Part shown: positions 8,417-33,281 of the stretch, piece after piece
Layout of the letters: every line of letters starts with the position of its first letter
How positions within the stretch are numbered: position 1 is the first letter of the stretch
IMG/VR virus record: IMGVR_UViG_3300017667_000007
Span: 1 to 34,279 of that record
DNA from: a virus
Length of the DNA stretch: 34,279 nucleotides
Strand: one strand, 5' to 3'
Notes under the pieces: model-generated
What the model was told of the DNA's origin: nothing
Seen by the model: only the letters and a program-made list of their open reading frames with translations
The model's database searches: none
Position numbers and translations under genes: made by a program

Positions 8417-8914
8417 TCAAAACGGAATGTCGTCGTCGAGATCATGGGCCGGCGCGGAACCTTGACCTGAAGATCGGGGCTCCGCGCTGCGGCCTTTCAT
8501 GTCGCCGTAGCCCGCCGTCTTGCCCTCGCGCTCGGCCGCGTCGTTCGGCGGCGGGCGGGCGCCCTCGCTGCGGTCGAGGATCACCAATTCGCCGCCGAAG
8601 GCGCGCAGCACGATCTCGGTGGTCCAGCGCTCCACGCCGCTCTTGTCGGTGTATTTGCGCGTCTCGATCCGGCCCGCGACATAGACCTTCGAGCCCTTGG
8701 CGAGGTTGCGCTCCACGATGCCGCAAAGGCCGTCGTTGAAGATCACCACATTGTGCCATTGCACCGCTTCCTTGCGCTCGCCGGTCGTCTTGTCCTTCCA
8801 GGATTCGGAGGTGGCGACGGAGAAGGAGGCGACCTTCGCGCCGGAATTCAGCGTGCGGATTTCCGGGTCGCGGCCCAGGTTGCCGATGATCTCGGCTCGG
8901 TTGATGGAGAACAT
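8417..8914 (-). CDS. ssb: Single-stranded DNA-binding protein
   Basis: 165 residues, usual length for bacterial-type SSB. The OB-fold is clear: INRAEIIGNLGRDPEIRTLNSGAKVASFSVATSESW, then WHNVVIFNDGL, then GSKVYVAGRIETRKYTDKSGVERWTTEIVLR. A disordered linker with Gly/Pro/Arg ends in the acidic tip DLDDDIPF, which binds partner repair and replication proteins. It coats single strands during phage replication or recombination. The start at 8914 overlaps the previous stop as TGATG. Longer frames upstream belong to the neighbouring gene. Confidence 0.95.
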   Translation of the reverse strand: MFSINRAEIIGNLGRDPEIRTLNSGAKVASFSVATSESWKDKTTGERKEAVQWHNVVIFNDGLCGIVERNLAKGSKVYVAGRIETRKYTDKSGVERWTTEIVLRAFGGELVILDRSEGARPPPNDAAEREGKTAGYGDMKGRSAEPRSSGQGSAPAHDLDDDIPF

Positions 8915-9174
8915 CAGCGCTTCGCCTTGCCGATCGCCTTGGCGGGATTGTGTTCGATGGTCGCCGGCTCGGTGATTGCCGGGGCGCAATCGAGGAAGGC
9001 GATATTGGGCCGTTGCTTGCGACCACGGGCAAAATCGATCTCCGTCTTGGCCGTGCCGATGATCCTGCCGGCGAGATGGGCGAGAACGATGCCCTCGTTG
9101 ATATCGACCTTTCCGCTGCGGATGCCTTGCCATACGTCGATGAGTTCGGCGCGCATTTCGACCATGTTCTTCAT
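8914..9174 (-). CDS. Hypothetical protein upstream of ssb, 86 aa
   Basis: Not recognised. It begins MKNMVEMRAELIDVWQGIRSGKVDINEGIVLAHLAGRIIGTAKTEIDFARGRKQ, a compact helical region of a kind often found in phage early genes beside ssb. The C-terminus is rich in Pro and Ala with a basic end. The start at 9174 is chosen because AGGAGAG lies nine bases before it, although the frame is open to 9201. The stop of the repeat protein is one base before the start. It ends as TGATG with ssb, so coupled translation is likely. Confidence 0.65.
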   Translation of the reverse strand: MKNMVEMRAELIDVWQGIRSGKVDINEGIVLAHLAGRIIGTAKTEIDFARGRKQRPNIAFLDCAPAITEPATIEHNPAKAIGKAKR

Positions 9175-9175
9175 G

Positions 9176-9955
9176 TCAGTCTCTCCTGAGTTCGCGGACA
9201 AGCCGCAGTTGCTCCGCTTTCACGGAAATGAAATTGGCGATGGTGGGGTCATGGCGATCGCTGGCTGGCCAGCCGAGCAGCTTCAAAATGTAGGAGTGGT
9301 GAAGAGAATCTCTTTCGGCTTTTCCCGATGCGCGTTTTTCCGCGGCAAGCCGCTCCTTGTTGGCTTCTCTCCATGCTCGGTGCTTCGCAAGGTACTGCTC
9401 CTTGTTGGCCTCTCTCCATGCTCGGTGCTTCGCAAGGCGCTGCTCCTTGTTGGCCTCATAGTACGCGCGCTGGCTCGCCGCGATCCGCTCCTTGTTAGCC
9501 TCACGGTATGCGCGGCTTTTTGCGGATCGCTGTTCTCCGTTGGCCTCACGGTAGGCGTGCTTTTTCGCGGCGCTGATCCGCTCCTTGTTGGCCTCACGGT
9601 AGGCGCGCTGCCTCGCCGCGATCCTCTCCCTGTTGGCCTCACCGTATGCGCGCGTTTTCGCGGCGATACGCTCCTTGTTGGCCTGATAGTATTCGCGCCA
9701 CTGCTGCTTGTTGGCCTCACGGTATGCAATCACGCGCTCCTTGTTGGCCTCACGCCATGAGCGCGCTTTCGCGACACGCCCCTCCTTGTTAGCCTCACGG
9801 TGTGCGCGCCTGTGAGCGGCCATCCGCTCTTTGTTGGCCTCTTCCCACGCGCGCTTTCCGGCTGCGATCCGCTCTTTGTTAGCCGCCCGCCAAGCCCGCA
9901 TATACTGAGCCTTCCGCTCCTTCCTGATGTCAGAGTGTTCGCTATTACTGCCCAT
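9176..9955 (-). CDS. Basic protein with about 13 tandem 15-residue repeats
   Basis: 259 residues. Residues about 20-210 are repeats of the form RAYREANKERIAAxQ. The ANKE-type core appears about 13 times with changes (EANKERM, EANKEGR, QANKERI, EANREPI-like EANRERI, EANGEQR). The result should be one long, highly charged helix that could bind nucleic acid. The C-terminal 45 residues (SYILKLLGW, then DPTIANFISVKAEQLRLVRELRR) are a different, compact domain resembling the tail of other phage proteins with such arrays. This tail is the part likely to be conserved. Repeat number can change by slippage or unequal exchange. Function unknown. Confidence 0.7.
   Translation of the reverse strand: MGSNSEHSDIRKERKAQYMRAWRAANKERIAAGKRAWEEANKERMAAHRRAHREANKEGRVAKARSWREANKERVIAYREANKQQWREYYQANKERIAAKTRAYGEANRERIAARQRAYREANKERISAAKKHAYREANGEQRSAKSRAYREANKERIAASQRAYYEANKEQRLAKHRAWREANKEQYLAKHRAWREANKERLAAEKRASGKAERDSLHHSYILKLLGWPASDRHDPTIANFISVKAEQLRLVRELRRD
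9335..9900 (-). repeat. Tandem coding repeats, unit about 45 bp
   Basis: On the plus strand the unit reads about as TCCTTGTTGGCCTCACGGTA followed by GCGCGC and a variable part. Two adjacent units near 9364-9440 are nearly identical, which suggests recent duplication. The array encodes the 15-residue repeats of the protein at 9176-9955. Confidence 0.85.
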
Positions 9956-10093: not shown

Positions 10094-11221
10094 TCACACT
10101 CTCATGGGCATCAAAACAAACAACGCGCTCGCCCCATCCCGGCTTTGCGCCAGCGTGGGGCTCGACGGGTCGCCCAATTTGAACAACACCGTATCCCCCG
10201 CCATCTGGCCCAGCATGTCGGCGAGGTAGCGGGCGTTGTATCCCGTCTCGAAATCCGGGCCGTCGTAATCAGCCTCCATCTCCTCGCTGGCGGAGCCGGC
10301 GTCGGGATTGCTGACGGAAAGCGTCAATTTGCCATCGGTCATCCTGAAGCGCACGGCCCCGCCGCGCTCGCTGCTGATCGTTGAGACGCGGTCGACCGCG
10401 GCCAGCAAGGCCCCGCGCTCCGCCACCAGGCGTTTCTCGTTCGCCGCCGGAATCACGCGGGTGTAATCCGGAAAAGTCCCGTCGATCAGCTTGGAGGTGA
10501 GGGTGAGGCCCGGCAGGATGAAGCGGATCTTCGCAGGCGAAGCCTCGATCGTGACCGCCTCCTTGGAATCCTTGACGCCCTTCAGAGCCGCCAGCACCTC
10601 GCCCACGGTCTTGCGCGGCACGATGATGCCCGGCAGCCCAGACGCGCCATCCGGCGCCGTCAGCCGCTCGCGGGCCAGTCTGTGCCCATCCGTCGCCACG
10701 GCGGTGAGATGCGTTTCATCATCCGCCGCGTTGATGTGGAGATAGATGCCGTTCAGGTAATAGCGCGACTCTTCCGTGCTGATCGCGAATTGCACGGTTG
10801 AAAAGAGCTGCGCCAGCGCGCCGGCGGCGAGCGTGAAGCGATGAAATTCATGCGGAAGAGCCATGCTGGGGAAATCGCCGATCGGCAGGGCCTGCAGCGT
10901 GAAGCGGCTGCGGCCGCCGCGCACCACCAGGCGCCTATCATCAGCATCCATGGCGAGGCTCACCTCGCCGCCCTCCGGCATCTTGCGCAGGATATCGTGC
11001 AGCAGATGCGCAGGCACGGTGGTGGCCATCTCGCCCGCCACCTCCAGCACCGCCACGGCCTCGATGTCGAGATCGGTGGCGGTGAGCGTCAGCCGCCCGC
11101 CCCTGGCCGAGAGCGCGACATTGGAAAGGACAGGGATGGTGTTGCGCCGCTCGACGACGCGCTGCAGAGAGGCCAAAGCGCCGGACAGGGTGTCGCGGGA
11201 AAGGGTGAGGGATTGGTTCAT
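10094..11221 (-). CDS. dnaN: DNA polymerase III beta subunit (sliding clamp)
   Basis: 375 residues, full bacterial length. All three clamp domains are present. Family blocks include LQRVVERRNTIPVLSNVALSA, LTATDLDIEA, LPIGDFPS, YLNGIYLH, ATDGHRLA, GLPGIIVPRKTVGE, LIDGTFPDYTRVIP, ERGGAVRF, GYNARYLADML and the terminal FVLMPMRV. It forms the ring that tethers DNA polymerase; a phage copy could favour phage replication or recruit host polymerase. The start at 11221 (MNQSL) matches the normal N-terminus. An in-frame ATG at 11242 overlaps the stop of the HD gene. The leftward operon also carries SSB, while no DNA polymerase gene is in the window. Confidence 0.95.
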   Translation of the reverse strand: MNQSLTLSRDTLSGALASLQRVVERRNTIPVLSNVALSARGGRLTLTATDLDIEAVAVLEVAGEMATTVPAHLLHDILRKMPEGGEVSLAMDADDRRLVVRGGRSRFTLQALPIGDFPSMALPHEFHRFTLAAGALAQLFSTVQFAISTEESRYYLNGIYLHINAADDETHLTAVATDGHRLARERLTAPDGASGLPGIIVPRKTVGEVLAALKGVKDSKEAVTIEASPAKIRFILPGLTLTSKLIDGTFPDYTRVIPAANEKRLVAERGALLAAVDRVSTISSERGGAVRFRMTDGKLTLSVSNPDAGSASEEMEADYDGPDFETGYNARYLADMLGQMAGDTVLFKLGDPSSPTLAQSRDGASALFVLMPMRV

Positions 11222-11234
11222 CACTGTCTCTTTT

Positions 11235-11978
11235 TTAGCCATGACGGTTGGACCGGGTTTGCGCGTGTGCGGATTCTTGCTGACCGCTCGCTCCGGACGA
11301 TGCTCGTCCGCTCGCGGCTTGCGAAGATGCAAGCTTGCTTGCGTCGAAGTCCGTCGCGCTCGCGCCAGTAAAGACAGGCAGGTGGTGCCGGAACAATTGC
11401 AGCAGCCGCTCGGCGCAGACGCCGGGCGAAAGCGGTGGCCCGAGAACGCGGTGGTGGCGCGGGATATCCTCCAGCGCCAGCCATGTCTCGGGCGGATCGG
11501 GCAGGTAATCGCGCCGCTCGGTCATCAGGGCGATCTGGTCGATCTTCCGGACGGCTTCGTGCATCGCCTTGTCGGGCAGCGGCAGGTGGGCGGCTTTGTG
11601 GATGGCGAAATCGTGAGCAAACTTGAGTTCTGCGATGCCATCTGCCGCTTCGTCGCTGAGATGAGCATCGCCCATGACGCTCGCTACGGAGATGGCGATC
11701 GCCTTGGCCACCGGCGTGGCGATATCGCCGATCCGCGCCTCATGCGCATCATGCAGCAGCCAATGCGGTATGGCCCATTCGAGCTTCTGCCAGCGTGCGA
11801 TCTCGACGCCGATAATCGTATGCCAGGCGACCGAGACATCGTATTTCGCCGCTCCGGTCCAGCGGTAAACGCGCGCCAAAGTCTCGGCGATCTCGGCGAA
11901 ATCGACCTGCGCTGGCGTCGGATCGATCAGGTCGATCCGGTTGCCGAAACGGGAGAGGATATGGGGCAGTCCGGTCAT
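11235..11978 (-). CDS. HD-domain phosphohydrolase (YfbR-like nucleotidase)
   Basis: 247 residues. The metal-binding HD pattern is visible: His in VAWHTI, His-Asp in WLLHDAHEARIGDI, and a later Asp in VRKIDQIALMTE. This matches phage HD proteins related to 5'-deoxynucleotidase YfbR, which act on nucleotides or deoxynucleotides. The catalytic part ends near residue 205 (ERLLQLFRHHLPVF). The C-terminal 40 residues are encoded by the family B and family A palindromic elements at 11284-11357. They read as low-complexity Ser/Ala sequence, an in-frame insertion. It overlaps the previous gene as ATGA. Confidence 0.82.
   Translation of the reverse strand: MTGLPHILSRFGNRIDLIDPTPAQVDFAEIAETLARVYRWTGAAKYDVSVAWHTIIGVEIARWQKLEWAIPHWLLHDAHEARIGDIATPVAKAIAISVASVMGDAHLSDEAADGIAELKFAHDFAIHKAAHLPLPDKAMHEAVRKIDQIALMTERRDYLPDPPETWLALEDIPRHHRVLGPPLSPGVCAERLLQLFRHHLPVFTGASATDFDASKLASSQAASGRASSGASGQQESAHAQTRSNRHG
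11284..11357. repeat. Family B element fused to family A element (B1 and A2)
   Basis: B1 (11284-11317) has the inner hairpin GGACGA-TGC-TCGTCC. A2 (about 11318-11357) has the inner hairpin GATGCAAGC / TT / GCTTGCGTC at 11326-11345 and loop GAAGTC. The outer stem of A2 is not preserved, as if B1 had joined into it. Both lie in frame in the 3' end of the HD gene. Confidence 0.8.
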
Positions 11979-12262: not shown

Positions 12263-12849
12263 CACGCGCCCTCCGGCCGGCAGACGGGGAAGGCCACGGC
12301 CTGCGGCGCGGGCTGAACGGCCGCGGCGTTGAAGGCGGGCAGCGTGCCGGGCCGGGCGATCTCCACGATTCCGGCGAGCATCAAGGCAAACGCGCCGATG
12401 AGGGTGAAGGCGGCAAGGGTGCGCTCGGTGCGGGTGAAAATCGGGCCTGGCTTGACGACGCTCTCGGGGCCAATCGCTGCCAACTCGGCGGAGCCTGTCA
12501 TCCGATCCCGAACGAGCTTCGCCATCCTCGCCGCTTCATCGCTCGCCAGCTTTCCGTAAGCCAGCACCTGATGCGGCGACCAGCCGCGCTGGTGCAGATG
12601 CCAGGGCTCGACATGGCCCCATTCCGCCTCAATCTCGCGCATGTCCAACGCCATGCGCCGGACGATGAAAGCCGCGACGCGCATCGCCTCACGGGGGATG
12701 TCCTCCCTCGCCGCGAGCGGATGAGCACCCCCGCTGCGAGCGGACGAGCATCGTCCGGAGCGAGCAGCGAAGCCGGAATCCTCCGGAGCGAGCGGCGCAG
12801 CAAAAACCTTCGCTGCTGCGGGGTTGTCGGGGGACGGAATCGGGTTCAT
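12262..12849 (-). CDS. Membrane-anchored hypothetical protein, first gene of leftward operon
   Basis: 195 residues. A soluble helical part (about 50-140, with AFIVRRMALDMREIEAEWGHVEPWHLHQRGW) is followed by one transmembrane segment near 150-172 (TLAAFTLIGAFALMLAGIVEIA). The start at 12849 is fixed by a strong AGGAGG just upstream. The frame is open further upstream to 12978, but that would cross the promoter and operator. Residues about 28-50 are encoded by family B element DNA and look inserted. It is the first gene after the leftward promoter, so it is probably expressed early and may alter the host envelope. Function unknown. Confidence 0.65.
   Translation of the reverse strand: MNPIPSPDNPAAAKVFAAPLAPEDSGFAARSGRCSSARSGGAHPLAAREDIPREAMRVAAFIVRRMALDMREIEAEWGHVEPWHLHQRGWSPHQVLAYGKLASDEAARMAKLVRDRMTGSAELAAIGPESVVKPGPIFTRTERTLAAFTLIGAFALMLAGIVEIARPGTLPAFNAAAVQPAPQAVAFPVCRPEGA
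12711..12797. repeat. Dispersed palindromic element, family B, copy 2 with partial copies
   Basis: The core at 12735-12766 contains GCGAGCGGACGAGCATCG followed by TCCGGAGCGAGC, with the GGACGA/TCGTCC hairpin. Partial copies flank it (GCGAGCGGATGAGCA near 12713, CCGGAGCGAGCGGCG near 12783). The cluster lies in frame in the leftward gene. Confidence 0.75.
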
Positions 12850-14665: not shown

Positions 14666-14994
14666 AAACCGCCGCCGATCCAGCAACGCTTTTTCGCAAG
14701 GGCGGCGCGCCGATGAAGCCTTACGTCTCCAAACCGCTTCGCCGCCGCAGCTGGTCCGAACGGGCCGATGCGATCGATCATTACGACCGCCATTCCGAGG
14801 CGGCCTGCGCCGCTCTGGCCGAGGCCGATGTGCTCTATCCCGATGCGCCCGCCGCGCTAGCCCTGCCGTTCCGCGAGGGCCAGGCTTTGCGCAACGGGGC
14901 GCTCGCCCGCAGCGGGGTCTTCATTGGCTCCTGCATGGGCTCCCCCGCCGCGCTCGCGGCGGAAGCGGGCGCAAAGAGATCGCGGGACCGCTGA
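14662..14994 (+). CDS. Hypothetical protein, 110 aa
   Basis: Not recognised. It contains KPLRRRSWSERADAIDHYDRHSEAACAALAEADVLYPDAP, a charged helical stretch, then LALPFREGQALRNGALARSGVFIGSCMGSPAALAAEAG. An internal ATG at 14713 could be an alternative start. Coupled to both neighbours by overlaps (ATGA at the start, TGATG at the end). It precedes the primase and may help in replication, which is inference from position. Confidence 0.6.
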   Translation: MKTAADPATLFRKGGAPMKPYVSKPLRRRSWSERADAIDHYDRHSEAACAALAEADVLYPDAPAALALPFREGQALRNGALARSGVFIGSCMGSPAALAAEAGAKRSRDR

Positions 14995-16205
14995 TGCTGA
15001 GCGAAGCGCAAATCGCCGAGATCAAGGCGCGGACCGATCTGTCCTCGCTGGCGGAAAGCCTGGGCGCGAAGCTGCGCCGCTCGGGCGGGCGCTTCGTCGG
15101 CTCCTGCCCGATCTGCGGCGGGGGCAAGAGCGCCACCCGCTTCGAGATCAAGGGGGCGGGCTGGGTTTGCGCGGTCTGCCCCGATGGCGGCGATGCGATC
15201 CGATTGGTGCAGAAGGCCACGGGCTGCGATTTTCCCGAAGCCTTGCGGCGGCTCGGCGGCGCGGTGATCCTCTCGCCAGAAGAAGAAAAGCGCATCGCCG
15301 GGCGCACCCGCGCAGCGGAAGCCAGGCGGCAGGCGGAAGCGGAAAGCTGCCGCCAGCGCGAGATTGATGCGGCGAGGCGCATCTGGGATGAGGCGGGCGC
15401 GGCGCGGATCGATGGCGCTGTCGTGGCCTATCTCGGCGGGCGGGGCCTGGCGCTTCCTGAAACCGCCATGCTGCGCGAGCATGCCGCTTTGCCCTATTAC
15501 CACGGTGAGGAGATGGACGAACGCGGGCAGAGCCGCCCGGCGCTGGTGCATCGCGGCCCCGCCATGGTGGCGGCGATCCTCGGCAATGACGGTCTCGTTC
15601 AAGGTTGCCACATCACCTGGCTGGATTCCTGCCCGCTCGCTCCGGACGATGCTCGTCCGCTCGCGGGAGCGCGGCCGCCCGGCAAACTGATGCTGGCCGA
15701 CATGAAAACCGGCGAGGTGCTGCCCGCCAAGAAGATGCGCGGCAGCAAGGCGGCGGGGCATATCGTGCTGCGCAGCGGCTGGCCCGAGTCGCGAAGATTG
15801 TTTTTGGCCGAAGGAATCGAAACCTGCCTCGCCGTCGCCGCCGCTTTGCGCAAGGCGGGGCAATTGCGGCGCGAGGACGCCTTCTGGGCCGCTGGCGACC
15901 TTGGCAATATCGGCGGGAAACATTCCGGCACCGTGCCGCATCCGACCGCCGTGACGGCCACGGGCCGCCCGCAGCGCGTGCCCGGCCCGGAGCCCGACCG
16001 GGAAGCCCCGGCGATTGCGCTGCCTGATTCGCTCACGCATCTTGTGCTGCTCGGCGATGGCGACAGCGAAGCATTCCTGACCCGCACAACTCTGGAGCGG
16101 GCGCGGCGGCGCTATGCGAGGCCGGGCCTCGCCATCGCCATCGCCATGGCGCCCGAAGGCGCGGATTTCAACGATGTGCTGGTGGGCGAAGGGGTGGCGG
16201 CGTGA
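14994..16205 (+). CDS. Zinc-finger/toprim DNA primase
   Basis: 403 residues. The N-terminal CHC2-like zinc finger uses Cys38, Cys41, Cys59 and Cys62 (CPICGGG...CAVC), followed by GGDAIRLVQKATG. The C-terminal toprim domain shows Glu273 in LAEGIETC and Asp355/Asp357 in LLGDGD, then ADFNDVL. It makes RNA primers for phage replication. A 36-bp family B element (15632-15667) lies in frame between ITWLD and GKLML, adding CPLAPDDARPLAG-type residues 213-225 in what should be a loop, so the frame is kept. The start overlaps the previous stop (TGATG). A P4-type helicase-primase lies four genes downstream, so this phage carries two primase-type proteins. Confidence 0.88.
   Translation: MLSEAQIAEIKARTDLSSLAESLGAKLRRSGGRFVGSCPICGGGKSATRFEIKGAGWVCAVCPDGGDAIRLVQKATGCDFPEALRRLGGAVILSPEEEKRIAGRTRAAEARRQAEAESCRQREIDAARRIWDEAGAARIDGAVVAYLGGRGLALPETAMLREHAALPYYHGEEMDERGQSRPALVHRGPAMVAAILGNDGLVQGCHITWLDSCPLAPDDARPLAGARPPGKLMLADMKTGEVLPAKKMRGSKAAGHIVLRSGWPESRRLFLAEGIETCLAVAAALRKAGQLRREDAFWAAGDLGNIGGKHSGTVPHPTAVTATGRPQRVPGPEPDREAPAIALPDSLTHLVLLGDGDSEAFLTRTTLERARRRYARPGLAIAIAMAPEGADFNDVLVGEGVAA
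15632..15667. repeat. Dispersed palindromic element, family B, copy 3
   Basis: Outer stem CCCGC/GCGGG at the two ends, inner hairpin GGACGA-TGC-TCGTCC, and an internal loop containing TCGCTCC. The 36-bp length keeps the primase frame. Confidence 0.85.
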
Positions 16206-17908
16206 TGGAGAACTCCCCCGCCGCCGGTGCGCCGAGCGAAGATGCAGGCTTGCTTGCGTCGCAGTCCGGCGCGCCTGCGGCCACTTTTCATGATGGCAAG
16301 ATCACGCTCCACGCCGGCGATTGCCTCGATGTGCTGGCGCAACTGCCCGAAGCCTCGGTCGACGCGGTGGTGACGGACCCGCCATATCATCTGGCCTCCA
16401 TCGTGAAACGGTTCGGGAAAGTCCCGCCCGGTGAGCCGAGCGAAGGTGCAAGCTCGCTTGCGTCGCAGTCCGGCGCGCCGGGCGCAGGAAAAACGGGCGT
16501 CTATTCCCGCTCCGCCCGCGGCTTCATGGGCAAGCAATGGGATGGCGGCGAGATCGCGCATCGGCCCGAAACCTGGGCGGCGGTGCTGCGCGTGCTGAAA
16601 CCCGGCGGGCATTGCGTCGCGTTCCATGCCTCGAAGAACTGGGCGTTTCAGGCCGTGGCCATGGCGCAGGCCGGGTTCGAGCTGCGCGACACGATCACCG
16701 ATCTCTTCGATCCCTCCCCCATCGCGGCGGAATTCGTGGCCAGCCTCTCGCCAGCCCAGGCGGAAGCCTTCGCCCATGTGCTGGCGGCGGATGACCGATT
16801 GGCTGATCTCTTCTGGATCTATGGCAGCGGGTTTCCGAAGTCGCTGAATGTGTGCCGCTCAATAGACAAGGTGAGTGGAGAAAGCGGCGTCTTCGCTGGC
16901 CCCAAAACGCCAGCCCATGCCGGACGGAAAAGGAAAGTTGCCGGTGTAGCGATACACGACAGGCCCTGGATGCACGATCCCGAGAGCATCGACCGGAATA
17001 ATCGGGAATATCTTCCGAGTTCGGAATATGCCCGGCGTTTCGAAGGTTTTGGCACGGCGCTCAAACCCGCCTTCGAGCCCATCGTGCTGGCGCGCAAGCC
17101 GCTTGCGGAAAAGTCGGTCGCCGAACAGGTGCTGGCCACGGGAACGGGCGCGATCAATGTCGGCGGATGCAGGATTGGGGTGGGGCCTGACGAGCCGGAG
17201 AGCTACATGCGCGGTGAGCGCGCCATCACAATGAAGCGCCCTGCGAGCGCCAGTAATTCGGTTTCGCTTCCGCCAGTCATTTTGAAAGATAGCGGCCTCG
17301 GCCGCTGGCCCGCCAATGTCACGCATGACGGCAGCGCGGCGGTGGAGGGGGGGTTCCCGGAGACGGGCGAAAGCAAGTCGTCGCATCGAGGCTTGCAGCA
17401 TAGCGGTCGCCACGGCGGCCTTGCCGATATTGGCGGCAACATAAAGCTAGGCACTGATGGGTTGCGTGGCCACGATGATGCCGGCGGCTCCGCCGCCCGT
17501 TTCTTCTATTCCTCCAAAGCCGATTCCGAAGACCGGATCGGCTCGAAACATCCCACGGTCAAGCCCATCACCCTGATGCGCTGGCTCTGCCGCATGGTGA
17601 CGCCGCCGGGCGGCGTGATCCTCGATCCTTTCGCCGGCACGGGAACCACCGGCGAGGCCGCGCTGCTCGAAGGCTTCAACGCCATCCTGATCGAGCGGGA
17701 AGGGGAATACCGCGCCGATATCGCCCGGCGGATGGAGGCCGTCTTCGCGGGCAAAAGCGCGCGGATGAAGGCCAAGGCGGCGCGGGCAAGTGTATCGCCC
17801 CCGATGCCGCTTTTTGCCGAGCCGGCTGAGGGGGGGGGCGACGGATCTACGGAACCTTCGCCGATCAATCGGCCCGATCGGCCTCAAGCGATGAGGGCAG
17901 TTGAATGA
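16205..17908 (+). CDS. DNA methyltransferase (N4/N6, DPPY type)
   Basis: 567 residues. Catalytic motif TDPPY at 57-61; the S-adenosylmethionine motif DPFAGTGTTGEAA lies near the C-terminus after KPITLMRWLCRM. This order is that of beta-class adenine or cytosine-N4 methyltransferases; no restriction partner is seen. The target-recognition region is about 200-430. Two family A elements lie in frame: at residues about 6-25 and about 75-93, the second just after the DPPYHLASIVKRFGK catalytic loop. Both encode GLLASQSGAP-like peptides. A run of nine G at 17830-17838 lies in the C-terminal tail. The start overlaps the primase stop (TGATG). Likely role: protecting phage DNA or altering gene control. 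Confidence 0.9.
   Translation: MENSPAAGAPSEDAGLLASQSGAPAATFHDGKITLHAGDCLDVLAQLPEASVDAVVTDPPYHLASIVKRFGKVPPGEPSEGASSLASQSGAPGAGKTGVYSRSARGFMGKQWDGGEIAHRPETWAAVLRVLKPGGHCVAFHASKNWAFQAVAMAQAGFELRDTITDLFDPSPIAAEFVASLSPAQAEAFAHVLAADDRLADLFWIYGSGFPKSLNVCRSIDKVSGESGVFAGPKTPAHAGRKRKVAGVAIHDRPWMHDPESIDRNNREYLPSSEYARRFEGFGTALKPAFEPIVLARKPLAEKSVAEQVLATGTGAINVGGCRIGVGPDEPESYMRGERAITMKRPASASNSVSLPPVILKDSGLGRWPANVTHDGSAAVEGGFPETGESKSSHRGLQHSGRHGGLADIGGNIKLGTDGLRGHDDAGGSAARFFYSSKADSEDRIGSKHPTVKPITLMRWLCRMVTPPGGVILDPFAGTGTTGEAALLEGFNAILIEREGEYRADIARRMEAVFAGKSARMKAKAARASVSPPMPLFAEPAEGGGDGSTEPSPINRPDRPQAMRAVE
16221..16280. repeat. Dispersed palindromic element, family A, copy 3
   Basis: Outer stem GGTGCGCCG (16226-16234) against CGGCGCGCC (16267-16275), extended after one mismatch by CCGC/GCGG. 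Internal loop AGCGAA/GCAGTC and inner stem GATGCAGGC / GCTTGCGTC. It is in frame near the 5' end of the methyltransferase gene. Confidence 0.85.
16427..16482. repeat. Dispersed palindromic element, family A, copy 4
   Basis: Outer stem CCCGGTGAGCCG against CGGCGCGCCGGG (one mismatch, one wobble), internal loop AGCGAA/GCAGTC, inner stem GGTGCAAGC / GCTTGCGTC. In frame beside the catalytic loop of the methyltransferase. Confidence 0.85.
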
Positions 17909-18216
17909 GCGAAGAGCCCGCCACCGCAAAGATATTACTCTTCACAGGCGTGCGGCGCGATCCGCGCACGGGGAAGTATGACATCGAGGCGCTTGTGGAG
18001 GCCGCCGTTCTGGCCGGCAAGGTGCGCCGTTTCCCCATGGGCCACCGCGCCCTGCCGCTTGGCTGCGCCACGATCAGCGGCATGGCGGCCGCCATCGCCC
18101 GCGACGCCGGGCCTGCGGGCGACAGGCGGCCCGCCGTTTTGAATTTCAGCAGCGGCCACAGCCCCTCCGGCCTGCGCGTGCTGCCCGTGGGAATCAACGA
18201 GGAGGATGGAGCGTGA
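17905..18216 (+). CDS. Hypothetical protein, 103 aa
   Basis: Not recognised. It reads like an alpha/beta protein: AKILLFTGVRRDPRTGKYDIEALVEAAVLAGKVRRFPMG, then LPLGCATISGMAAAIARDAGP and VLNFSSGHSPSGLRVLPVG. No catalytic motif stands out. The ATG overlaps the methyltransferase stop (ATGA), and its own stop overlaps the GTG of the next gene. It may assist the methyltransferase or replication genes; that is inference from linkage alone. Confidence 0.6.
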   Translation: MSEEPATAKILLFTGVRRDPRTGKYDIEALVEAAVLAGKVRRFPMGHRALPLGCATISGMAAAIARDAGPAGDRRPAVLNFSSGHSPSGLRVLPVGINEEDGA

Positions 18217-18659
18217 CGAATCCCGGCAATTATGTGCTCGCGGCCTTTTTCATCGGCATGGCCGTGCCGCTCGGCATGATCGCCGTCGCGATGATCGAGG
18301 ATGACCCCCGCCCGCCCGGCTTCCGCCGTCTGGTCCTCATCGTGCTGGCGCTGCTCATGCTCGGCGCATGGCTTTCGAAGGCCCATGCCCACGGCCCATG
18401 GCCCTGGGCCTGCTGCGCCGACAATGATTGCGACGAGATCGACGCCCGCTTCGTCAGGGAATACCCGGAGGATGACACGATCCGCATCGCCATCCCGCCC
18501 GGCGGCCACAAGCTCTGGGGGCCGGAGCAGACCACGACCCGGCGCGTCACGCTGCATCGCAGCCAGTTGAAGAAACCCGTGACGGGGGAATGGGGGCTTT
18601 GCATCAAGCCCTACACCTTCGAATTCCTCTGCGCCTTCCCGCCGATGGTGAGCGGGTGA
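18213..18659 (+). CDS. Membrane-anchored protein with periplasmic cysteine domain
   Basis: 148 residues from a GTG start inside the previous stop (GTGA). Two hydrophobic segments are present: 8-28 (VLAAFFIGMAVPLGMIAVAMI) and about 41-56 (LVLIVLALLMLGAWL). A domain follows with WACCADNDCDEI, then IPPGGHKLWG and GLCIKPYTFEFLCAFPP. The pattern CCxxxDC...C...C with PPG resembles a group of small secreted proteins common in Hyphomicrobiales whose function is unknown. It probably faces the periplasm. Its place between a methyltransferase-linked gene and a MutS-domain gene, in a replication operon, is unexpected. Confidence 0.65.
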   Translation: MTNPGNYVLAAFFIGMAVPLGMIAVAMIEDDPRPPGFRRLVLIVLALLMLGAWLSKAHAHGPWPWACCADNDCDEIDARFVREYPEDDTIRIAIPPGGHKLWGPEQTTTRRVTLHRSQLKKPVTGEWGLCIKPYTFEFLCAFPPMVSG

Positions 18660-18916
18660 TGCGATCCATGGGCAGCTATATCGAGGAGAAGGCGATGCAG
18701 CCCGGTGCGCTCGTGCTGCATCGCATGGGCGAATTTTACGAGGCGTTTTTCGAGGATGCGGATGTCGCCGCGCGTTTGCTCGGCCTGCCGGTGACGGCGC
18801 GCGGCACGCATGAGGGCCAGCCCATCCCGGTCGTCGGCGTGGCGGCGCGCAATCTTGCCGCAGCCGTCGCGGCGCTGCGGGCCGCCGGGCAGCAAGTGGT
18901 GATCACCGAATCATGA
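18659..18916 (+). CDS. Stand-alone MutS domain I (mismatch-recognition domain)
   Basis: 85 residues that match the first domain of MutS along their whole length: YIEEKAMQPGALVLHRMGEFYEAFFEDADVAARLLGL (split here only for length), then PVTARG, GQPIPVVGVA, and a final AGQQVVITES where MutS has GESVAICEQ. The Phe-x-Glu mismatch wedge is kept as F-Y-E in GEFYE. No ATPase, clamp or dimer domain follows; the gene stops and the next starts in ATGA. The start at 18659 overlaps the previous stop (TGATG). It could bind mismatched or branched DNA at the fork or compete with host MutS. Function of such orphan domains is not known to me. Confidence 0.85.
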   Translation: MRSMGSYIEEKAMQPGALVLHRMGEFYEAFFEDADVAARLLGLPVTARGTHEGQPIPVVGVAARNLAAAVAALRAAGQQVVITES

Positions 18917-20715
18917 CCTCCCCCGCATCCCCTCCCGATCCCGCGGCGGAGCGCATCGCCGCGATCGTCGGCCGGGCGCTCGCCGACGCTGCGGATGGAG
19001 CGCGGGATGATTCGCGCGGTGATGGCGTTGACGATGCGCCTCCTGCGCCCGATGACGGCGAGGAGGACCGCCTGCCTTCCGACAGCCATGATCCCGATAT
19101 CAACATCGATGCGGTGCGCAGCTGCGCCGGGCTCGATCATTCCGACACCGACAACGCCTTGCGGCTGCGCAAGCATTTCGGCGCTGACCTGATGGTGGTG
19201 GCGCGCCAGGGCGTGGCGGGCGGCGATTGGGCGGGATGGACCGGCGCTTTCTGGGACATCGGCAATGGCGCGGCGCTCTCAATCATGACCTGCCAGAAAC
19301 TCGGCGCGCGAATCGGCCTTGAGGCCGGGTTCCTCAACCTTTCCGAAAGCGAGGAGGCGGAAGTGGCGAAAGCCAGGCCCTTGCGCAACACCCCGGCGAA
19401 GGAGCGCAGCGCCTCGGACAATGAAACGGTCGACCGCGCCGATTCCCTGATCAAGGGCCTCTCCGGGCGGCGCAGCGCCCGCCGCAAATTCGCCGTCACC
19501 TCCAAGAACGTGGGCCGGATTGAGGCGATGCTGAAGATGGCCTCGCCGCATCTCAGGATCGAGCCGGACAGCTTGAACTCTGCGCCGCTCCGCTTCGCCT
19601 GCCGCAGCCACACGATCGAATTCGTGCAGGAGCCGGACCTGGAATGCCCGGACCCGGATGCCAACCGGATGCGCTGGACCTGCCGCGCCACGCCGGGCCA
19701 TGACAGGGCCCATCTCATCACCGGCGTGGTGGCGGCGGATTACGACCCGGCCGCGCAGGCGCCGCAATGGATGACATTCCTCAATGACCGCCTGCCGGAC
19801 GCCGACAAGCGCCGCACGGTCCAGGTCTTTTCCGGCCTTGGCCTCACCGGGCTTTTGATCCAGCGCCTGATGTTCCATTACGGCACCGGCGCCAATGGCA
19901 AGAGTGTCTTTCTCGAAACGCTGTTTTCGCTTTACGGCCCCTCGATGGGCGTGGCGCTGCCCGCCGAATCGATCACAGGTGCTGGCGACCGCAAGGCCGG
20001 CGGCCCCTCGCCCGATATCGTGCGGCTCTTCGGCAAGAGGGCGCTGCGCGTCTCGGAGCTGCCCGCCGGCGCGCGGGTGGATATGGAATTGGTCAAGCGC
20101 CTCACCGGCGGCGAGGGCCTCGCGGTGCGCTCGCTCTATGAGGGTTATTTCGAATTCGTGCCCAAGGCCAAGGCGCATTGGAGCGGCAATGACAAGCCGG
20201 GGTTGGATGGCGGGGATTACGCCACTTTCCGCCGCCTGCTGCTCGTGCATTGGGACACGACCGTGGATGAGGCCGTGCGCCGCGACATCCATGACATGGT
20301 CTCTGATTTCATGACCGAGGGCGCGGGAATCCTCAACTGGCTCATCGCCGGCGTGCTCGATTACCTCAATGCGGGCCACAAGATTTTCGTCGCCCAGGCG
20401 ATCAGCGAGGATACCGAGGAATACCGCAGCGAGAATGATCCGGTCGGCGAATTCGTCAAGGATTGCCTTGAGTTCGAGGAGGGGGAGAAGGCCGAGGCCG
20501 AAGTGCTCTTCGCGGCCTACAAGAGCTATTGCGCCGTGACTGGGCGGAACGAGCCGCTCTCGCAGCTCAAATTCGGCACGGCGCTCAAAAAGCGTGTGCC
20601 GAAAAAGGGCAAGATCAATGGGCGGGTGTTCTATCGCGGGGTCAGGATTGGCCATGTGCCGCAGCCCGCGACCACTGGCCCGCAACCCGATGAGGCGCGA
20701 AACGGAGGGTTCTGA
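18913..20715 (+). CDS. P4-type phage/plasmid primase-helicase (SF3, D5-like)
   Basis: 600 residues. The acidic N-terminus (1-80) is variable. The middle carries the D5_N-type domain (about 225-320, with WMTFLNDRLPDADKRRTVQ). The SF3 helicase follows with Walker A GTGANGKS at 324-331 after QRLMFHY, and a Walker B/sensor region near KRALRVSELP, with RLTGGEGLAVRSLYEGYFEF after it. A C-terminal winged-helix part (VLFAAYKSYCAVTGRNEPLS) is typical of the P4 alpha family. It unwinds the phage origin. The start overlaps the MutS-domain gene (ATGA). The following 311 bases look like its origin. Confidence 0.92.
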   Translation: MTSPASPPDPAAERIAAIVGRALADAADGARDDSRGDGVDDAPPAPDDGEEDRLPSDSHDPDINIDAVRSCAGLDHSDTDNALRLRKHFGADLMVVARQGVAGGDWAGWTGAFWDIGNGAALSIMTCQKLGARIGLEAGFLNLSESEEAEVAKARPLRNTPAKERSASDNETVDRADSLIKGLSGRRSARRKFAVTSKNVGRIEAMLKMASPHLRIEPDSLNSAPLRFACRSHTIEFVQEPDLECPDPDANRMRWTCRATPGHDRAHLITGVVAADYDPAAQAPQWMTFLNDRLPDADKRRTVQVFSGLGLTGLLIQRLMFHYGTGANGKSVFLETLFSLYGPSMGVALPAESITGAGDRKAGGPSPDIVRLFGKRALRVSELPAGARVDMELVKRLTGGEGLAVRSLYEGYFEFVPKAKAHWSGNDKPGLDGGDYATFRRLLLVHWDTTVDEAVRRDIHDMVSDFMTEGAGILNWLIAGVLDYLNAGHKIFVAQAISEDTEEYRSENDPVGEFVKDCLEFEEGEKAEAEVLFAAYKSYCAVTGRNEPLSQLKFGTALKKRVPKKGKINGRVFYRGVRIGHVPQPATTGPQPDEARNGGF

Positions 20716-31258: not shown

Positions 31259-31522
31259 ATGCTTGTCCGCCTCGCCAATCCCGAACACATGCTGCCCTGG
31301 CCCGGCGTTCCCGGCCGCATCGTCACCGGCGATGAGGTGGTGGAGATCAATGAGAACCACCCGTTCTGGGGCGCATGTCTCAGGGATGGGAGTTTGGTGG
31401 AGGTGGTTGATTCTCCTGCCCCGCTCGCGACTTCTTCTGCCCCGCTCGCTCCGGACGCTGCTCGTCCGCTCGCGGGGGAACCTGGCCCAGCCGTCGCGAA
31501 GCCCGCCAAGACAACCGCCTGA
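31259..31522 (+). CDS. Small protein before the sheath, DUF2635-like
   Basis: 87 residues. The first 50 (MLVRLANPEHMLPWPGVPGRIVTGDEVVEINENHPFWGACLRDGSLVEVVD) resemble the short DUF2635 proteins found just before contractile-sheath genes in Mu-like phages. An AGAGG ribosome-binding site precedes the ATG. The C-terminal 35 residues are encoded by family B element DNA (31441-31476) and a partial copy before it, giving PLAPDAARPLAG. This looks like an in-frame insertion, since the core protein is complete before it. Confidence 0.6.
   Translation: MLVRLANPEHMLPWPGVPGRIVTGDEVVEINENHPFWGACLRDGSLVEVVDSPAPLATSSAPLAPDAARPLAGEPGPAVAKPAKTTA
31441..31476. repeat. Dispersed palindromic element, family B, copy 4
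   Basis: 36 bp, outer CCCGC/GCGGG, inner GGACG-CTGCT-CGTCC. Identical to copy 5. Lies in frame in the small gene before the sheath. Confidence 0.85.
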
Positions 31523-31532
31523 TTCTTTAGTT

Positions 31533-31568
31533 CCCGCTCGCTCCGGACGCTGCTCGTCCGCTCGCGGG
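31533..31568. repeat. Dispersed palindromic element, family B, copy 5
   Basis: 36 bp identical to copy 4, 56 bases downstream of it and outside coding sequence. It is followed after 26 bases by a family A element. Confidence 0.85.
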
Positions 31569-31594
31569 TGTTTGCACCACGTTTGAACTGCTCC

Positions 31595-31656
31595 GCCGAA
31601 TCCGTGCGGAGCGAAGCTGCAAGCTTGCTTGCGGCGCAGTCCCGCACGGCTTCGGC
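31595..31656. repeat. Dispersed palindromic element, family A, copy 5
   Basis: Outer stem CCGTGCGG against CCGCACGG, extended after one mismatch by GCCGAA/TTCGGC. Internal loop AGCGAA/GCAGTC, inner hairpin GCTGCAAGC / TT / GCTTGCGGC. Intergenic, just upstream of the sheath ribosome-binding site. With copy 5 of family B it fills the 154-base gap 31523-31676. Confidence 0.88.
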
Positions 31657-33186: not shown

Positions 33187-33244
33187 CCCACTCCTTCGGG
33201 ACTTCGCCGCAAGCAAGCTTGCAGCTTCGCTCCTCCATCGTGGG
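33187..33244. repeat. Dispersed palindromic element, family A, copy 6 (minus orientation)
   Basis: Inner stem GCCGCAAGC (33206-33214) / AA / GCTTGCAGC (33217-33225), loop GACTTC opposite TTCGCT. Outer arms pair only at CCCAC/GTGGG and CC-GG. Reverse orientation to the other copies; it fills the gap between sheath and tube genes. Confidence 0.75.
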
Positions 33245-33281
33245 ATGGGGGAGTTAAACCCAACACCACGGAGAAACCAAA

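Follow-up and report, generated by a model that had tools for sequence, protein, structure and literature searches.

A stand-alone MutS domain I gene between the primase and helicase genes of a phage replication operon, and its relatives in other phages

The window analyzed here is a virus record of 34,279 nt with integrase, gpA-type terminase, capsid and tail-sheath genes, indicating that it likely derives from a contractile-tailed temperate phage. The nearest terminase among the examined loci was that of a Bosea sp. LC85 prophage (TerL 82%, TerS 71%), and the phage host is therefore probably an alphaproteobacterium, a member of the Hyphomicrobiales near Bosea. Six genes follow one another on the plus strand: a zinc-ribbon/Toprim primase (14994..16205; PF01807, PF13362 and phrog_510, DNA primase), an N6/N4 DNA methyltransferase (16202..17908; PF01555, E 4.9e-22), a 103-aa protein (17905..18216) with four-base overlaps at both ends, a 148-aa protein with a hydrophobic N-terminus (18213..18659), a MutS_I protein (18659..18916), and a P4-type primase/helicase C-terminal protein of 600 aa (18913..20715; TIGR01613 at 166.7 bits with a cut-off of 108.7, D5_N and Pox_D5). 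The 103-aa and 148-aa proteins had no match in Pfam, PHROGs or NCBIfam. Each junction, starting from the primase gene, overlaps by 1 to 4 bases; the TGA of the 148-aa gene overlaps the ATG of the MutS_I gene (TGATG), and the helicase gene begins inside the MutS_I stop codon (ATGA). These overlaps suggest that the six genes form a single transcript and are translationally coupled.

The MutS_I gene starts with an ATG at 18659, ends with a TGA at 18916, and encodes a product of 85 aa, MRSMGSYIEEKAMQPGALVLHRMGEFYEAFFEDADVAARLLGLPVTARGTHEGQPIPVVGVAARNLAAAVAALRAAGQQVVITES. The Pfam MutS_I profile (PF01624) covered residues 4-84 with an E value of 1.5e-15 and a score of 57.8 bits, the curated gathering score being 20.6, and was the sole match in the Pfam search, with no second domain. 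The full-length MutS models NF003810 and TIGR01070 also matched the protein, with about the first 85 model positions only; the NCBIfam scores of 69.3 and 63.2 bits were below the cut-offs of 480 and 641.7. In the PDB sequence search, the protein aligned to residues 14-94 of E. coli MutS. A score this far above the cut-off, together with the matches to full-length MutS models and to E. coli MutS, makes chance a negligible explanation, and the domain assignment is firm. Moreover, a profile search of the whole window found neither MutS_V (PF00488, the ATPase) nor MutS_III (PF05192, the core), indicating that the protein is not a MutS but a stand-alone MutS domain I. An earlier note on this DNA had described an orphan MutS domain I gene lacking the ATPase and clamp domains; the orphan domain I was confirmed, with the ATPase and core domains missing.

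The same note had read a conserved Phe-x-Glu wedge (FYE) in the protein, and the alignments agreed: F26-Y27-E28 (codons at 18734..18742, plus strand) correspond to F36-Y37-E38 of E. coli MutS, leaving the wedge intact. Arg22 and Arg48, the equivalents of E. coli R32 and R58, were also kept. Several residues that are near-invariant in MutS were altered, namely QQ to GS, P to A, H to R and Y to A. The GC content by codon position was 0.75/0.47/0.80, with similar values in the neighboring genes, and the net charge of the protein was about -2, identical to that of the E. coli domain.

The fold was predicted with AlphaFold2 from an alignment of the 85-aa protein with 21 MutS N-termini. The model had a mean pLDDT of 93 and a pTM of 0.81. 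It contained three helices and five strands, the same secondary-structure content as MutS domain I (PMC3848065). The best matches of this model in a Foldseek search against the PDB were MutS proteins, with TMq values of 0.85-0.89 for the top ones, and a second structural alignment gave Z scores of 12-14 against MutS chains over 77-85 residues. This comparison, which could have told against the assignment, shows that the protein fits the MutS domain I fold in a model whose input alignment contained MutS and which is thus not an independent discovery. The protein spans the equivalent of E. coli residues 11-95 and falls about 20 residues short of the domain I C-terminus (2-115); since many phage relatives stop near the same point, this shorter unit appears viable. 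Domain I of MutS (MutS1), for example in the E. coli (1e3m) and Neisseria (5yk4) proteins, shares the fold and the wedge with the phage protein at 38-51% identity. Unlike MutS1, the phage protein has no connector, core, clamp or ATPase domains, lacks the last ~20 residues of domain I, and has changes at conserved residues.

MutS-I outside MutS was stated in 2017 by Iyer et al. to occur only in polyvalent proteins, with Bacteroidetes and Firmicutes named (PMC5512222). Those proteins likewise place a MutS domain I in mobile elements, beside counter-host and replication functions, but there it is one of 2-15 domains, whereas the phage protein consists of MutS_I alone; with 85 aa and one domain, it falls outside a class defined by at least two domains per polypeptide. 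Relatives were sought in viral contigs. The MutS_I, helicase and primase proteins as single queries gave no confirmed relatives there, and neither a two-sequence profile nor the protein of one prophage locus (L184, described below) found anything. A first profile scan of these contigs returned 80 loci, all of them full-length MutS or MutS cut by a contig end, and was set aside as having missed the stand-alone forms. With a Bacteroidetes-based profile, 107 relatives were found and 80 kept, and removal of full-length MutS and duplicates left 63 distinct non-MutS MutS_I domain sequences, of which 37 came from proteins no longer than 210 aa. The exclusivity statement of Iyer et al. thus no longer holds. 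Both the F36 and E38 equivalents were present in 54 of the 63 sequences; one of the two search patterns spans the wedge, and the 38 sequences matching the other pattern are the less biased set. Among these stand-alone or fused domains, F and E were both kept in 29, and one or the other was lost in about a quarter. MutS_V was absent from all eight records of phage relatives that were tested, and the 85-aa gene belongs to the grouping made here, a short phage MutS_I protein in a record without the MutS ATPase.

Some members of this kind are already in the databases. ORF064 of Bacteroides phage B124-14 (CCE45993.1, 'putative mismatch repair protein') is an 81-aa stand-alone MutS_I with FCE at the wedge and the same C-terminal end; it differs in phage lineage and host phylum, and lies between resolvase and antirepressor genes, with no P4-type helicase beside it. 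The BFVD entries A0A8S5PL02 (74 aa, 'MutS domain I'), A0A8S5L9N2 (84 aa) and A0A8S5PPT8 (153 aa) are small proteins of metagenomic phages with the same predicted fold at 16-32% identity, and are known by annotation only. No published study or functional test of stand-alone MutS_I proteins was found in the literature, and the 85-aa gene joins these database entries as a barely described kind of phage gene.

In bacterial genomes, stand-alone forms were rare among Alphaproteobacteria. Nine of 397 Hyphomicrobiales genomes had extra or weak MutS_I matches, which on inspection were mostly contig-end or second full-length copies; one was a clear stand-alone MutS_I, a 254-aa prophage protein (L184; L188:12965-13729, minus strand). 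This protein keeps FYE and adjoins a tape-measure-like gene. Another Hyphomicrobiales match (L187) sits in a 938-aa frame. Among 199 genomes of the Bosea LC85 family, a single one had extra matches; these were a truncated copy of mutS and a divergent protein of 262 aa (L223:7517-8305, plus strand) in which the wedge Phe is lost. The 254- and 262-aa proteins both consist of N-terminal regions of ~140-170 residues of no known family followed by a C-terminal MutS_I.

The domain in the window was closest by sequence to alphaproteobacterial MutS, with up to 51% identity. In the best tree, it joined the 254-aa prophage form (L184) among alphaproteobacterial MutS with a support of 89/81, on long branches and from a short alignment, and seven Bacteroidetes-type forms made a separate clade (100/99). 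The AU test did not reject a single clade of all stand-alone and fused forms (p-AU 0.18), and a claim of separate origins for the stand-alone forms was dropped on this result. Separate excision of domain I from MutS is plausible.

Next to the gene, the earlier note had seen a coupling to the P4-type helicase. The overlapping codons within a replication operon bear this out; a special tie to this helicase type is not supported, since MutS_I was found in none (0/80) of the fetched flanks of prophage loci with a related helicase in bacterial genomes, and the MutS_I genes of other phages adjoin different genes. In many of the 80 Hyphomicrobiales prophage loci (L090-L169), the gap between primase and helicase contained differing genes, which by inspection included DNA methyltransferases and ParB-like, deaminase-like and large helicase-like proteins. 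Together with the absence of MutS_I from the 80 loci, this varied content indicates that the MutS_I gene occupies a variable cargo slot and that its link with the helicase is positional, not obligate. The Hyphomicrobiales primase-helicase gap is also a place to seek counter-defence genes. Two small genes in this gap of Rhodobacter phage RcapNL were not MutS_I-like by eye. A weak BLAST match between MutS_I and the N-terminus of related primases (E 0.003-1) was rejected, being one homologous position that recurred in the zinc-ribbon region.

The neighborhoods of the phage relatives were typed with Pfam and PHROGs for 99 proteins, and the figures are raw counts with no background rate: MPTase-PolyVal 4, ArdC-N 3, ArdA 1, N6/N4 methyltransferases 3, DnaC-like helicase loaders 4, DNA helicases 3, and replication initiators 2. 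This set is suggestive in its agreement with the window, in which a methyltransferase and a helicase are encoded in the MutS_I operon. In addition, phrog_1362 occurred seven times among the 99 neighbors, as a gene of ~380 aa upstream of MutS_I (L234, L244, L298 and others), and its protein may be a functional partner of MutS_I.

Signaling by MutS needs its ATPase, and in MutS the clamp domains and the second subunit also hold the DNA. Of the MutS wedge residues, Phe36 makes a stacking contact with the mismatched base and Glu38 a bond to it, and with the F36A or E38Q substitution specific binding or discrimination is lost (PMC3848065). MutL binds MutS at the connector domain and at another surface, and domain I is flexible or unresolved in the MutL-bound clamp (PMC4521584). 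Our tentative proposal, the most likely of the readings considered, is that the 85-aa protein acts as a passive binder of mismatched or kinked DNA, denying host MutS access to the DNA of the phage. A free mismatch-binding domain would be produced together with the phage primase and helicase, presumably early, and would engage phage DNA at mismatches, loops or kinks by inserting Phe26 and Glu28, in the fashion of MutS. Having no connector or ATPase, it would form no ATP-driven sliding clamp and recruit no MutL, so that the mismatch would be read but not reported. By occupying such sites, it could passively conceal replication errors, heteroduplexes and distorted phage DNA from host MutS, and neither mismatch repair nor its veto on recombination between diverged sequences would be triggered on the phage DNA.

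This decoy role is favored by the conservation of the wedge, Arg22 and Arg48 and by a fold that matches mismatch-bound MutS. The retention of both wedge residues in 29 of 38 relatives, when F36A and E38Q destroy recognition in MutS, suggests selection for DNA recognition. The antirestriction, methyltransferase, helicase-loader and helicase neighbors, and the fact that domain I has no known MutL contacts, argue in the same direction. Against it stand the net charge of about -2 and the loss of F or E in roughly a quarter of the less biased relatives. The main doubt is one of affinity: within MutS, the clamp domains and the second subunit help to hold the DNA, and domain I by itself may bind too weakly. 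The broader idea, that phages repeatedly excised MutS domain I as a mini-decoy against host mismatch repair and anti-recombination, and that such proteins make up a widespread, undescribed counter-repair class, is possible but more doubtful.

Rather unlikely is a helicase or fork targeting role, in which the domain recognizes distorted or branched DNA and brings the P4-type helicase, or the clamp, to such sites. In XPB, a MutS-like damage-recognition domain is believed to act for the protein's own helicase, and N-terminal regions of XPB were the first non-MutS matches of our model, with Z scores of 5.2-5.7, a range that the tool calls common. A targeting role would suit a gene directly upstream of the helicase gene and overlapping it, with relatives near helicases and DnaC-like helicase loaders. 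However, the helicase does not need MutS_I in the 80 loci that carry a related one, and the genes carried between primase and helicase differ from locus to locus.

The changes at several near-invariant MutS residues, the loss of the wedge in some relatives and the truncated mutS copy in one related genome would suit a domain that no longer reads DNA, serving as a structural or protein-interaction module or being a decaying captured mutS fragment. We consider this quite unlikely for a gene with an open frame, a normal codon-position GC, a confident fold, an intact wedge and tight operon overlaps, and with many short relatives that have similar ends.

For the polyvalent proteins, ~80% of which also carry ArdC-N, recognition of single-stranded DNA was proposed for MutS-I by Iyer et al. 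(PMC5512222), and by analogy the phage protein might be a protection or antirestriction factor, coating incoming or replicating phage DNA wherever short stretches are single-stranded or distorted. Relatives next to ArdC-N, MPTase-PolyVal and ArdA genes, and the DNA methyltransferase in the operon of the window, are consistent with this. Nevertheless, the 85-aa protein has no ArdC-N or peptidase domain, and plain coating of single-stranded DNA does not explain a conserved mismatch wedge; we consider this role, too, quite unlikely.

Finally, it is highly improbable that the fragment directly poisons host MutS by binding to it and blocking its dimerization or its clamp. A domain derived from MutS, and closest to alphaproteobacterial MutS, could have kept contacts with the remainder of that protein, but MutS dimerizes through its ATPase/HTH region (PMC3848065), neither MutS_V nor MutS_III was found in the window, and domain I shows flexibility when the clamp is bound to MutL (PMC4521584). 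The subunit-poisoning form of the 'dominant competitor' suggested in the earlier note is unlikely on the same grounds, as the protein lacks that dimerization region and MutL contacts lie on the connector and elsewhere.

The case is of interest for its fairly large group of wedge-bearing mini-proteins, on which we found no experimental work in the literature. To our knowledge, no phage inhibitor of host mismatch repair has been established. If free MutS domain I proteins do bind mismatches, they would offer phages a route to tolerating replication errors and to recombination with diverged relatives, and research would gain a minimal mismatch-binding module. If they do not, phages put to some other use a fold that was considered specific for mismatch recognition. 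The natural versions surveyed here, with and without the wedge, are a panel that makes the mismatch-binding idea directly testable.

Other features of the window were also recorded. On the minus strand, the phage has its own DNA polymerase III beta clamp (DnaN; 10094-11332) with all three Pfam domains, as well as an SSB gene (8417-9133); Paracoccus phage Pthi1, which has a related helicase, likewise has a clamp. At 9176-9955 (minus strand), a 259-aa protein is built of 15-residue repeats (45-bp repeats in the DNA), rich in Ala, Asn, Lys, Glu and Arg. Two dispersed families of GC-rich repeats of ~30-50 bp, with the cores TGCAAGCTTGCTTGC and CGGACGATGCTCGTCCG, were found in both orientations at 11269-11360, 12731-12772, 15618-15666, 16224-16275, 16428-16479, 31427-31650 and 33197-33249. 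The copies inside the primase gene (15618-15666) and the methyltransferase gene (16224 and 16428) are apparently in frame, like protein-coding palindromic elements.
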